A DNA stretch of 10,079 nucleotides. Source: Ruminococcus sp. (GTDB lineage Bacteria; Bacillota; Clostridia; Oscillospirales; Ruminococcaceae). Under the pieces are notes generated by a model. It had not been told where the DNA came from, ran no database searches, and saw only the letters and a list, made by a program, of their open reading frames with translations. Made by a program: the position numbers and the translations under genes. The DNA is taken from NCBI GenBank assembly GCA_017544125.1, contig JAFYET010000231.1, positions 1 through 10,079 of the forward strand. The letters run 5' to 3'. Positions 2,937-6,088 of this stretch are shown here, piece by piece. Position 1 is the first letter of the stretch, and every line of letters begins with the position of its first letter.

Positions 2937-2965
2937 TTGACAACTGTAGTTATTTATGTTATCAT
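2937..2965 (+). promoter_or_regulatory. Strong promoter of the Abi_2 leader RNA and gene
   Basis: A perfect TTGACA (2937-2942) lies 17 bp from TATCAT (2960-2965), with TG one base before the -10. Transcription should start near 2971, giving a leader of about 70 nt before the Abi start codon. This lets the gene be expressed in the lysogen independently of the late operon on the other strand. Confidence 0.85.
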
Positions 2966-2970
2966 ATAGG

Positions 2971-3018
2971 TAACAACTCCCCCAGGCCTCTGTGGCAACA
3001 CATGCACACTTGGGGGCT
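2971..3018 (+). ncRNA. Structured leader RNA upstream of the Abi_2 gene (abiF-motif-like candidate)
   Basis: The first transcribed bases can fold into an outer 8-bp stem, CCCCCAGG (2979-2986) with CTTGGGGG (3009-3016). It encloses a perfect 4-bp stem TGTG/CACA closed by a GCAA (GNRA) tetraloop (2991-3002). No U tract follows, so it is not an ordinary terminator. Rfam describes an abiF RNA motif that lies upstream of Abi_2-type genes, and both position and neighbour fit. I cannot test the match to its covariance model here. It may act as a regulator of, or antitoxin-like partner for, the downstream protein; this is inference. Confidence 0.55.
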
Positions 3019-3042
3019 TTCTGCTATACAAGGAGCACTATT

Positions 3043-3918
3043 ATGAAAAGTTTTAAAACCATACAAGAGCAAATAGAATTACTCCGTTCAAGAAATCTAA
3101 CTATAGATGATGAGTCTATCGCATATGATTTTTTATTAAAAAATAATTATTATCGTATAAGTGGCTATTCGCTGACTTTACGTCATCAAGATTTGTTCTA
3201 TCCCTCCACATCATTTCAGAATATAATAGATATATATAATTTCGATCATGAATTCAGAATGCTTTTGTGGAATACAATTCAAATAATAGAAATAACAGTA
3301 AAATCAATTTATGCCTATTATTTTACTATGAAAAACTCTCCGACTGACTATCTTGACTCAAGTAAATTTACTGATGAAGTAATACATAAAAGTATCATCG
3401 ATAAAGTCATGGATCAAAAGGATAAACGAAAATCACACGAGGCTTTTATTCAACATTATGTAAATGACCTTAACGAGGATATGCCTTTGTGGGTAGCTGT
3501 AGATTTATTTACTTTTTCAGACATTTCAAAGCTTTATTCAATTTCAAAAGGCGACTTAAAAAAAGATGTTGCCTCTGAGTTGGGGTTACATTTTAATTCT
3601 GCACCCGATGTCTTAAAAAAATATCTGCATAGTATAACGATATTAAGAAACCTATGTGCACACGAGAGTCGTATTTATAATAGGCTATTTATTACCAAGC
3701 CCAGTTTAAATAGAAACGAGCTTAGTTATTTGAGGGATAACCCCGATGGTACCAAAGATAATTCGCACGTTTTTGGATATTTGTTTAATATTAAACGTTT
3801 AGTAGACACAAAAACATTTTCTCAGTTTAAGACATCACTTATAGATTTAACCAAAAAATACCCCTTTGTTGATATGCGGTACTATGGTTTTTGTGAAAAA
3901 TGGGATCAAGTATTGTAA
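3043..3918 (+). CDS. Abi_2 family (AbiD/AbiF-like) abortive-infection protein with HEPN motif
   Basis: The 291-residue protein matches the Abi_2 family, which includes the lactococcal abortive-infection proteins AbiD and AbiF. Members are thought to stop growth of phage-infected cells, probably by HEPN-type RNA cleavage. Family blocks seen are YYRISGY (36-42), MPLWVAVDLFTFSDISKLY (147-165) and LRNLCAHESRIYNR (201-214). The last contains the R-x4-H signature (Arg202, His207) of HEPN ribonucleases. The length is normal for the family. The ATG at 3043 was chosen because AAGGAG (3030-3035) lies 7 bp upstream; the longer frame from 2992 would begin inside the leader hairpin. The gene is far more A+T-rich than its neighbours, suggesting separate acquisition. 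Standing alone beside the att site, it probably protects the lysogen against other phages (inference). Confidence 0.85.
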   Translation: MKSFKTIQEQIELLRSRNLTIDDESIAYDFLLKNNYYRISGYSLTLRHQDLFYPSTSFQNIIDIYNFDHEFRMLLWNTIQIIEITVKSIYAYYFTMKNSPTDYLDSSKFTDEVIHKSIIDKVMDQKDKRKSHEAFIQHYVNDLNEDMPLWVAVDLFTFSDISKLYSISKGDLKKDVASELGLHFNSAPDVLKKYLHSITILRNLCAHESRIYNRLFITKPSLNRNELSYLRDNPDGTKDNSHVFGYLFNIKRLVDTKTFSQFKTSLIDLTKKYPFVDMRYYGFCEKWDQVL

Positions 3919-3994
3919 TTATTTTGATTCTTTCTACATATAATAATAACACAGTCCCTGCAAGCTTTAATAAAAGCGCAATACCGCAGGTCTT

Positions 3995-4037
3995 CTGATA
4001 AAAAAGGCTGCCGGTCACCTGACCGGCAGCCTTAGCT
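3995..4037. terminator. Bidirectional terminator between the Abi gene and the late operon
   Basis: A perfect 13-bp stem AAGGCTGCCGGTC/GACCGGCAGCCTT (4004-4033) closes a 4-nt loop. Leftward it is followed by TTTTTT, directly after the endolysin stop, so it ends the late operon. Rightward it is followed by AGCTTTT and can stop Abi transcripts as well. Confidence 0.9.
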
Positions 4038-4042
4038 TTTAC

Positions 4043-4984
4043 TTAATCTCTCCCTTTGGTAATGTAAGCTATATCGTCAGAATTCACCCACCCTGTGACA
4101 TACAGTCCTACGGGGGTTCTGCCGCAGTTTGACTTGCTCGTGGTGATGCGGTACTTGCCGCTGACAAGCTTGCCGTCGTAAAGGTAGTAGTTTCCCGACA
4201 GGGTGTTCACCGGTACCTGCCCGCCCGAAGACACATACAGCTTAGCGCCCTTCAGCGTTATCTTGCTGCCTTTGGTAAGTACAGGTGTCTTTGCTGCGGG
4301 AACGCTGTAAACCGCCCTGCCCTTCTCGTCATACACCATATACCCCGCCTTGCAGGCTTTCTTTGCGTTGTCAAGGTTTGAGTATGCCCCGATCTGCGAC
4401 TTGCTGTCAGTCCAGCTCTTACGTATGCGGTAGAGGTGCTTTGTGGTGGCTGTTGCCTTGGCAGATGTCTTAGTCGTTTGTCCGAGCCGTTTGTTGACCT
4501 CAGCTGCTATGTAGGGAAACTTCCCACCGAGATACGGTCCCGGGCAGCCTGTCGCTGCGAACCACTTGTGCATGGTCAGATTGCCTGACTTGTCGCCAGT
4601 GTAGTTGAGCTTCTTGATGCCGTTACGCTTACAGATATCCACACACAGATCTATGAGCTTGGCGAGCGCCTTGTCGGACACGTGCCAATCGGGAGCACCG
4701 CCGTCATTGGCGACCTCGATAGTGATAGCCCTGTTGTCATTCTCGGGCGATGATGTACACCAGCTGCGGTTTACTTCGTCCACGTAGAGGGCGACCCTGC
4801 CGTCTGTGCCGATAGCATAGTTGCTCGACACCTCACGTGAGGGATTTGCAAACAGCTCGCCGCACTGCTCGACGGTCAGGTTTCCAGCCATGTGATGTAT
4901 GGTTATGGTGTCTATCTTGTGGTTTCGAGGTACGTTGCAGTTAGGCGACCTCTTAATATAGCTTACTAAGCTCGAATTACTCAT
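4043..4984 (-). CDS. Endolysin: N-acetylmuramoyl-L-alanine amidase with two C-terminal modules
   Basis: This phage lysin cuts the amide bond between N-acetylmuramate and L-alanine in peptidoglycan. Residues 20-165 form an Amidase_2 (T7 lysozyme/PGRP-like) domain. Likely zinc ligands are His30 in ITIHHMAG, His139 in MHKWFAATGCPGP, and Cys147. After an Ala/Thr/Lys linker (168-182), a module at 183-228 (YRIRKSW...GAYSNLDNAKKAC...YDEKGRAVY) is of a type often seen in Clostridia lysins. Residues 234-305 look like an SH3-type wall-binding domain. There is no signal peptide, so release depends on the holin. The start ATG overlaps the holin stop by 8 nt and has an AAAGGAGG site inside the holin's end. 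It is the last gene of the operon. Confidence 0.92.
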   Translation of the reverse strand: MSNSSLVSYIKRSPNCNVPRNHKIDTITIHHMAGNLTVEQCGELFANPSREVSSNYAIGTDGRVALYVDEVNRSWCTSSPENDNRAITIEVANDGGAPDWHVSDKALAKLIDLCVDICKRNGIKKLNYTGDKSGNLTMHKWFAATGCPGPYLGGKFPYIAAEVNKRLGQTTKTSAKATATTKHLYRIRKSWTDSKSQIGAYSNLDNAKKACKAGYMVYDEKGRAVYSVPAAKTPVLTKGSKITLKGAKLYVSSGGQVPVNTLSGNYYLYDGKLVSGKYRITTSKSNCGRTPVGLYVTGWVNSDDIAYITKGRD

Positions 4985-5420
4985 CTTGGTTTCCTCCTTT
5001 ATCTTCTAAATGCTTTTTCAACTTTGTTATGGCTTTCATCAAAAACGGTGGCAGGGGCACGCCTATCTCGCCGAGATTTTCGAGCACCGATATGCACTCG
5101 TTGATGATGAGCCATATAGTGACTATCAGCCCGAGATAATAGCTCATCTCTATGTCTACCCCTACGCCTTTAAGCCCTGAGAACAGCACCCAGTCCATCA
5201 CGGCAGCTACGATCACAACGCCGATGTAGCCTACCTTTTTAACTATGCCCTTAAGCCCGACCTTGCTCGACAGCTCTCCCCTGATGTATGCCGCCGAGAT
5301 GCCTGATATGTAATCTACGCTCATCATCACGATGAGCAGTGCGAGTGGTATGAGTATCACCCGTGTATATGCCAGCAGCCCCGCCAGAGCCGCTGACAGC
5401 AGAAGTTTAAGTTTATCCAT
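4977..5420 (-). CDS. Phage holin (class 4, Phage_holin_4_1 / cp-1 type)
   Basis: The holin forms membrane lesions that release the endolysin at the end of infection. The 147 residues hold hydrophobic segments at about 5-19, 20-40, 62-82 and 95-113. Family hallmarks are VDYISGISAAYIRGELSSK (35-53), the following GLKGIVKK, and ECISVLENLGEIGVPLP (108-124). The tail is charged and lysine-rich. I preferred the ATG at 5420 because GGTAGGGGGTG lies just upstream; a GTG at 5438 would add six residues. The gene overlaps the endolysin by 8 nt and follows the metallopeptidase gene by 17 nt, giving a compact lysis cassette. Confidence 0.9.
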   Translation of the reverse strand: MDKLKLLLSAALAGLLAYTRVILIPLALLIVMMSVDYISGISAAYIRGELSSKVGLKGIVKKVGYIGVVIVAAVMDWVLFSGLKGVGVDIEMSYYLGLIVTIWLIINECISVLENLGEIGVPLPPFLMKAITKLKKHLEDKGGNQDE

Positions 5421-5437
5421 ATCTTCACCCCCTACCA

Positions 5438-6088
5438 CTAAATGCCTGCTATGTGCCCCGGGGCAAGTTTCAGCTCATCGGGTGAGCTGTCGGCGAAAAC
5501 GCCCCGGTTGTGCTTTATCACATCATATAGCCCCCGAGAAAACGCCTCGACAAAGTCCTCTTCCTCGTCGTGGGAGAGAGGCGAGGGCTTGCAGAACTCG
5601 TGTATTATCGCATGGCATATCTCATGTAAAAAGATATACCGCTCATACTCGGGGTCGCCAAGCGATGACACGAATATCTCAGACTTCGGTGTGTGGCGAC
5701 ACTCGCCCGCTGTCAGAAAATCCCTCTTGGGGTTTTTGAACACCGCACCACGAACCACATCATACAGCGCATCGCCTACCCTGATAGCGTCGGGTATGCT
5801 CAGGGTGCCGTGTTCAAGGGTGTCTGATATGTGGTTGAGTATTATCTTCGGCTTGCCGTTTTCGAGCCTCAGATCATAATGCAGGTACTTTCTGCCTGCA
5901 TACTCGCCCCTGCCCTCAATGGCTATTATCATAGTGCCGTCGCCGTTGTGCAGGGTATCTACTACCTCATAGTCCTTGCCACGCAGCAGCTCATGTCCGT
6001 CATCGGCTGTGATCTTGATATTCTCAGCAGCGGCATCATAAAACCGCTGCCAGTTTAAAACGTGCATTAGTCCGGCTGTCTCTATCAT
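5438..6088 (-). CDS. Ig-like domain fused to an HExxH (ImmA/IrrE-like) metallopeptidase, unknown phage role
   Basis: I know no named family for the whole 216-residue protein. Residues about 23-75 resemble the small Ig-like repeats of Firmicutes surface proteins: a DGHELLRGKDYEV block, then GTMIIAIEGRGEYAG. Residues about 115-195 resemble a phage or ImmA/IrrE-type metallopeptidase. The motif HEICH (155-159) supplies two zinc ligands and the catalytic Glu156, and an acidic helix EEEDFVEAF (175-183) offers Glu181 as third ligand. There is no signal peptide or membrane segment. It lies between the XkdX-like gene and the holin, 5 nt after the former, with GGGGAG before its start. It could trim a virion or host protein, or be a virion-borne enzyme; neither is shown by the sequence. 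Confidence 0.65.
   Translation of the reverse strand: MIETAGLMHVLNWQRFYDAAAENIKITADDGHELLRGKDYEVVDTLHNGDGTMIIAIEGRGEYAGRKYLHYDLRLENGKPKIILNHISDTLEHGTLSIPDAIRVGDALYDVVRGAVFKNPKRDFLTAGECRHTPKSEIFVSSLGDPEYERYIFLHEICHAIIHEFCKPSPLSHDEEEDFVEAFSRGLYDVIKHNRGVFADSSPDELKLAPGHIAGI

Follow-up and report, generated by a model that had tools for sequence, protein, structure and literature searches.

An AbiF gene at a prophage end with two divergent abiF-like RNA hairpins, one on each side

What does a short RNA hairpin at the start of the transcript of an Abi_2/HEPN gene do, and do RNA and protein together form an anti-phage unit? This question is raised by a locus of Ruminococcus sp. that we analyzed in a stretch of 10,079 nucleotides, here called the window. 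Our answer, to which we assign a probability of roughly 75%, is that the locus is an RNA-protein unit of a prophage, a type III-like toxin-antitoxin system with anti-phage function, in which the antitoxin is split and lies on both sides of the AbiF toxin gene. The anatomy of the unit, its conservation, the covariation in its RNAs, its restriction to one clade and the intact catalytic motif of the protein are direct observations.

The protein-coding part matches the description given in the initial annotation of a HEPN-motif Abi_2 protein directly 3' of a leader. The abiF gene (3043-3918, +) encodes an Abi_2/AbiD HEPN protein of 291 amino acids that matches Abi_2 (PF07751) at E 2.8e-45, with 155.3 bits against a curated cut-off of 25.6, is identified as AbiD in PADLOC (E 1.4e-77) and is homologous to the solved AbiF of PDB 8vz6 (PbAbiF; E 5.4e-25). 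The HEPN RNase motif RNxxxH is present as R202-N203...H207 and aligns with the RN...H of 8vz6, the residues of which are numbered R210 and H215 in PMC12373285. Both R202 and H207 are invariant in all eight aligned clade members. The strong promoter that had been proposed for the gene is also present (2937-2965, +), with TTGACA and TATCAT spaced by 17 nt, TG ahead of the second hexamer and 11 of 12 matches. A Shine-Dalgarno sequence, AAGGAG, can be read at 3030-3035 (+), 13 nt past the outer stem of the leader hairpin. The program that lists open reading frames starts the gene at a GTG within this hairpin (2992-3918, +; 308 amino acids). We favor the ATG at 3043 because both the homologues and the Shine-Dalgarno sequence point there.

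The leader hairpin, RNA1 (2971-3027, +), is abiF-like, carries a conserved tail past its stem and was recognized by fold, conservation and covariation. Folding of 2972-3042 reproduced the compact structure described before, namely an outer stem of 8 bp (2979-2986 with 3009-3016, +) around an inner stem TGTG/CACA (2991-2994 with 2999-3002, +) that is closed by a GCAA loop. As a single-sequence fold this is unremarkable (-20.2 kcal/mol, z -1.18; 24 of 200 shuffles give an equal or better fold), and it is the conservation across loci, not this fold, that leads us to accept RNA1 as real. From genome contigs we collected 19 homologous loci encoding relatives (L002-L020). The leader is present in all 17 that have the gene start (L002-L015 and L017-L019); L016, whose sequence begins within the coding region, and L020, a fragmentary locus at the edge of its contig, were not counted. 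The leader alignment A1 comprises the window and 16 loci (17 rows, 16 distinct) and omits L003, the leader of which is identical to that of L002, as well as L016 and L020. In A1, 96.5% of the cells pair, compensatory changes are found in both stems and the covariation score was reached by none of 500 shuffles. Likewise, none of the 500 reached the 11 double-changed cells observed, against 3.1 in shuffles. Three pairs changed on both sides (columns 11-45, 12-44 and 23-31), a number reached by 47 of 500 shuffles, and further pair types were not above shuffles, their number being reached by 499 of 500. Hence, neither of the two outcomes named in advance as speaking against the leader, close homologues without it and stems without compensatory changes, occurred.

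Some features of RNA1 vary and others do not. The GC core never varies, and its pairing is putative; RNAalifold gives some of its bases other partners. The inner stem is variable in length and is long in L115. Fourteen of the 17 rows of A1 have a GNRA inner loop, which is GAAA in 12 rows, GCAA in the window and GUAA in L007; the loops of L002, L015 and L019 do not belong to this type. The reported lack of a U tract holds for the window (CUUUCUGCU), most homologues having CGUUUUGU at that place, and no terminator was called between RNA1 and the abiF gene in the window. Model R1 scores the RNA1 of the window, which is part of its training set, at 77.2 bits. In L014 (5622-5977) two copies of the leader flank a run of N; this probably marks a gap in the assembly, and the leader is then not truly duplicated.

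Reading 3' of the stop codons revealed a second abiF-like hairpin, RNA2 (3950-3998, +), which the initial annotation had not reported. It has a 3' bulge and a conserved tail, an outer stem formed by 3957-3961 with 3986-3990 and an inner stem that starts at 3964 (+). RNA2 is present in all 16 homologous loci that have the gene end (L002-L017), with one outer pair mismatched in L015; it is absent from L018, L019 and L020, in which the gene end is missing. Alignment A2 has 16 rows, 14 of them distinct, with L010 entered two bases short; L011, which is one base from L009, and L018-L020, for want of the gene end, were omitted. In A2, 92.8% of the cells pair and the covariation score was again reached by none of 500 shuffles; four pairs changed on both sides, which 15 of 500 shuffles reached, and further pair types were not above shuffles. 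The GC core pairs are invariant and, as in RNA1, putative. Model R2, trained on a set that includes the window, scores this RNA2 at 47.0 bits. Just 5' of RNA2 lies a -10-like box, TATAAT (3939-3944, +). Such a box, defined by at least five of six matches and a distance of at most 24 nt 5' of RNA2, occurs in 20 of 25 units, against a background of 33% in shuffles of the same stretches and 11.5% in random 24-mers; the other five units have no good box there. On the other side, RNA2 is followed by a terminator-like hairpin of 13 pairs (4004-4033, +), with a modest tail on the + strand (AGCTTTTACT) and a better one on the - strand (TTTTTTAT), so that it may also serve the convergent lysis genes. 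By eye, terminator-like hairpins follow RNA2 in homologues as well. Because of the box on its 5' side and the hairpin on its 3' side, RNA2 is probably a separate small RNA of its own.

RNA1 and RNA2 belong to one RNA family, since model R2, which was built from 3' elements only, matches the 5' leaders of 16 loci (E 9e-8 to 1e-4). The possibility that they are unrelated elements was rejected on the same grounds. The match of R2 to the RNA1 of the window is weak (E 0.036), and the leader of L015 is not matched. Common to both RNAs are the outer stem, a 5' bulge, the GC core, GCNCA on the 3' side and a G-U-rich tail. The initial annotation had considered a match of the leader to the Rfam abiF motif, RF03085; the relation is more distant. 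RF03085 matches neither RNA1 nor RNA2 of the window up to E 10, and neither reaches the covariance-model threshold of 37 bits. Both do have the RF03085 layout of outer stem, 5' bulge of 1-2 nt, GC core, loop, 3' bulge and outer stem, and a descriptor scan finds an RF03085-like layout on both sides of the gene. L002, L015 and L019 have no RF03085 match at the gathering score, and a search of the genomes of L002 and L015 with stricter filters gave matches on other contigs only. L146 looks intermediate between RF03085 and the window elements (33.2 bits). We therefore refer to RNA1 and RNA2 as abiF-like and not as members of RF03085; their sequences suggest a divergent variant of the abiF RNA, with an enlarged, hairpin-bearing loop in RNA1. 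Other Rfam rows at the window elements were below their cut-offs and were taken as chance. RNA1 itself is novel to a limited degree only, since wider covariance models of AbiF RNAs (Zilberzwige-Tal et al.) exist, as named in PMC12804078.

Three side observations concern leaders elsewhere. Further loop-extended leaders were seen by eye at the Abi_2 loci L026, L027, L029 and L031. The leaders 5' of Abi_2 in L043, L126 and L128 share another element, ACCTG.GAGGCCTGT.ACC, followed by a terminator-like hairpin, and may perhaps represent another RNA class of Abi_2 genes. Finally, genome G112 gave eight weak R1 matches of ~21 bits (L103 and L106-L112), which all lie near contig ends and thus probably reflect a repeated element unrelated to AbiF.

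How might such a unit work? Binding and neutralization of AbiF by RNA has been shown for a relative of the window unit, the AbiF of C. difficile (PMC12373285). There, RCd22, an RNA with two abiF motifs, represses AbiF via limited read-through and protein binding and neutralizes it both in cis and in trans; changes of R202 and H207 in this AbiF abolish toxicity and weaken RNA binding, according to the same paper. In the PbAbiF dimer, one RNA is bound per monomer and bulged nucleotides inhibit the RNase, as summarized in a review (PMC12737573). The window AbiF, being homologous to published AbiF, should likewise be an RNA-silenced toxin, and by analogy we propose two transcripts, binding of their RNAs by AbiF, inhibition and release by phage. 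AbiF would be the toxin, a HEPN RNase acting as a homodimer. RNA1, at the start of the abiF mRNA, and RNA2, the probable separate small RNA, would be two divergent versions of one abiF-type hairpin, each able to bind and silence one AbiF monomer. RNA2 would be an antitoxin supplied in trans, whereas RNA1 would capture AbiF on its own message, 13 nt 5' of the ribosome site, and may also limit synthesis, since bound AbiF could block its own translation from so close a position. Phage attack that halts host transcription or degrades RNA1 and RNA2 would then free the RNase. Two hairpins per toxin would fit a dimer with two RNA sites, and our guess is that each dimer takes one RNA1 and one RNA2; a clade with two divergent hairpins lets one ask whether this is so. 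An RNA element next to an RNase-type toxin gene is what defines type III systems in part, and it is found here; tandem antitoxin repeats before the toxin, followed by a terminator, are absent, the window and the homologous loci having one element on each side of the gene instead, and for this reason we term the unit type III-like. The RNA-neutralized AbiF toxins are a known kind of system, of which the unit shows a new layout.

The place of RNA1 at the mRNA start also suits a simpler function, in which it is a cis leader only, acting as an attenuator or on ribosome access, and RNA2 is only a 3'-UTR stabilizer or terminator accessory, so that neither is an antitoxin. The U-rich stretch past the stem in most homologues could terminate weakly, a terminator-like hairpin does follow RNA2 (in the window, and by eye in others) and RCd22 acts partly through premature termination (PMC12373285). 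We nevertheless consider this quite unlikely: RNA1 and RNA2 conserve unpaired positions as well as stems, they form one family whose relatives act by binding protein, and elements of this RNA type are found without the toxin too. The initial annotation had further left open whether the RNA restrains or guides the HEPN protein. Restraint is in line with the published AbiF RNAs, which are inhibitors (PMC12373285; PMC12737573); guidance found no support. RNA1 and RNA2 are conserved end to end except for stems and inner loops, and we dropped the idea of a Cas13-like function, in which they would direct the protein to foreign RNA, because no variable, spacer-like segment is seen in them. A review (PMC12948488) also describes AbiF as lacking RNA-targeting specificity. 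Guide function is thus highly improbable, even though AbiF has been proposed as the ancestor of Cas13 (PMC12165695, PMC12737573). Given that proposal, the layout of the RNA partners of AbiF does bear on the way in which a guide RNA evolved from an antitoxin RNA.

The two-sided antitoxin layout that we favor appears to be confined to one clade. At 31 RF03085 loci the RNA lies before an Abi_2 gene in 15 and after the gene in one (L053, the contig of which also carries an RF03085 RNA before the gene); in the remaining 15, a profile of our own gave no Abi_2 match within the 1.7 to 3.1 kb examined, several of these loci being near-copies. L146 was seen by eye to have a second hairpin 3' of its gene as well. 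A quick tree was built from 47 protein rows, with layout labels assigned by hand and partly by eye; in it the 21 two-RNA rows form one group (SH-aLRT 99). Eight of the 21 were reached via the RNA itself, which leaves the window and 12 loci as the unbiased part, and the tree omits L003, L014, L016, L017 (frameshift), L018, L019 and L020. Protein identity to the window drops to 39% inside the group, so that the layout is not recent. Outside the group branches are long, and the number of origins of the layout is not settled by the tree. L018 and L019 are truncated copies of the unit. In a distant Abi_2 family (L040, L041 and L046) we saw by eye what seems to be a downstream small RNA only, with a strong -10-like box and a terminator-like hairpin.

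The linkage to a prophage att site that had been suggested for the unit is supported. The att repeat (2682-2738, -) spans 57 nt, all of which recur unchanged on contig C146 of the same genome. Its counterpart there falls in the 3' part of an intact tRNA-Leu(gag) that adjoins an integrase-like ORF of 376 amino acids (named by eye). The abiF gene sits at the prophage end, with the att repeat to its left and, to its right, the convergent lysis genes (4043-5438, -) for an amidase (4043-4984) and a holin (4977-5438). It is plausible that lysogens use the unit against competitor phages. On the host side of the att repeat lies a phage integrase remnant of 117 amino acids (2165-2518, +; PF00589 positions 93-170 of 172), perhaps derived from an older element.

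RNAs of this type also occur on their own. Models R1 and R2 were run over 391 Clostridia genomes with stricter filters, and matches with E above 1e-6 were not used. R1 and R2 each gave nine places, of which five and four, respectively, are beside an Abi_2 gene within loci of ~1.5 kb either side (window included in both). Nine orphan places in nine genomes were followed up by searching each whole genome for PF07751. It is absent from six of these (G517, G521, G590, G505, G389 and G257, 85 to 100% complete); in G467 the only Abi_2 is that of its full unit, and other Abi_2 genes are found in G328 and G549. Among viral contigs, pattern scans yielded 13 loci, four with Abi_2 and both RNAs. Eight (L114, L117, L119, L120, L121, L123, L124 and L125) have no PF07751 in the whole record, records that may be fragments, and L118, which has no outer stem, was set aside as chance. 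Neighbors tested for the orphan RNAs on viral contigs include portal, major head, terminase and head protease genes. A protein search of viral contigs found no relative. With the RNA1 of L006 as query, blastn found one unannotated contig, L154; with its RNA2, 13 records at E near 10, which were not used. On one gut phage contig (L168) an abiF-type RNA (1501-1539) is followed some 310 nt on by a DUF3800-VIII RNA (1852-1915; 76.7 bits).

Among 50,697 phage records, 104 were matched at E up to 10 by a 40-nt query of RF03085 type, many of the matches being weak or short; these include duplicates, and 40 Bacillus, 36 Staphylococcus, 14 Enterococcus and 7 Lactobacillus records are among them. Another query matched 45 records, again often weakly or over a short length, and blastn of three orphan RNAs against named phages gave no match. 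Twelve named phage records, chosen for similarity, were fetched. RF03085 exceeds its cut-off in three of them (Salicola CGphi29 and Aeromonas PZL-Ah8, both 50.1 bits, and Mycobacterium Redno2, 47.5 bits) and matches at E up to 1 in all 12 records so chosen, none of which has PF07751 anywhere in the whole record. A tblastn search of all phage records with the window AbiF gave 81 records, none named Bacillus. In 10 of the 12 records the loop is enclosed by a stem of 5 to 8 pairs without interruption, counting G-U as a pair, and these stems have eight different sequences; no stem was found under the geometry of the scan in Javan132 and Redno2. Shuffled flanks match the phage stems in 0.04 to 2.9% of cases, giving a combined p of 5e-10 over the 10 records if these are treated as independent; the constancy of the loop is partly a product of the search. 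In L157-L164 and L166, the abiF-type RNAs near locus position 1500 are intergenic, with no Abi_2 in the record, and often lie among tRNA genes or beside terminase, portal and capsid genes. Stand-alone copies occur in Bacillus and Staphylococcus Herelleviridae, in an Aeromonas Autographiviridae phage and in Enterococcus, Lactobacillus, Salicola and gut phages. The Herelleviridae and Autographiviridae are virulent; Redno2 and Javan132 may be temperate.

These observations suggest that the orphan phage RNAs may be decoys against AbiF, the boldest lead of our analysis. In the wider picture, about which our opinion is evenly balanced, abiF-type RNAs would be a wide currency of phage-host conflict, serving as a split antitoxin in one AbiF clade and as stand-alone phage decoys that silence host AbiF. 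Alternatively, the stand-alone copies in phages and prophages might be mere remnants of lost AbiF units. L154, L092 and L095, which keep a promoter-like box and the leader, resemble deletion products, truncated copies of the unit exist (L018 and L019) and 15 of the 31 RF03085 loci are without an Abi_2 gene in the 1.7 to 3.1 kb examined. Yet the unbroken stem in 10 of 12 named phages, with its eight different sequences, is what selection for the fold would produce, and the RNAs are intergenic in phages that belong to different families, where they neighbor tRNAs or lie close to genes for packaging and capsid; all of this makes a remnant origin less likely. If the decoy reading is true, it would describe an RNA counter-defense that keeps host AbiF RNases silent during infection and would lend support to AbiF as a real anti-phage defense. 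We found no proposal of a decoy role for AbiF in the literature, searched without most subscription journals. The abiF RNA of cyanophage S-CREM1 is described as possibly functional in infection, with no decoy role proposed in the part of the paper considered here (PMC9964418).

Set against known systems, the unit shares with RF03085 the outer stem, the 5' bulge, the GC core, the CCUCU loop start, the 3' bulge and the place before Abi_2. It differs in that the loop of RNA1 is enlarged by a hairpin, that of RNA2 is shortened and re-paired, and a second copy lies 3' of the gene. AbiF-RCd22 of the Clostridioides difficile phi027 prophage (PMC12373285) is similar in its Abi_2 HEPN toxin by lysis genes, with the R202/H207 motif, in the structured RNA at the transcript start and in having two abiF-type motifs per toxin. 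As described there, however, its motifs both match RF03085 and are both part of a single upstream RNA, which a terminator separates from the gene; here RF03085 is not matched, the gene is flanked by one motif on either side, and the second motif seemingly has its own promoter. PbAbiF-AbiFr (8VZ6) has a homologous protein (E 5.4e-25) with aligned HEPN residues and, by description, an RNA hairpin partner, but one RNA kind per monomer is described (PMC12737573) in contrast to the two kinds here. ToxIN also pairs an RNA antitoxin with an RNase toxin, although the toxin is unrelated and the RNA is a pseudoknot in repeats (PMC3475682). Its pseudo-ToxI counterpart in phage PhiTE, an RNA that mimics a type III antitoxin, provides the precedent and the model for the orphan RNAs; the wild-type PhiTE locus has 1.5 repeats, which are expanded in escape phages (PMC3475682). 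Should the orphan RNAs indeed be decoys, antitoxin mimicry would be common in nature, beyond the case of PhiTE.
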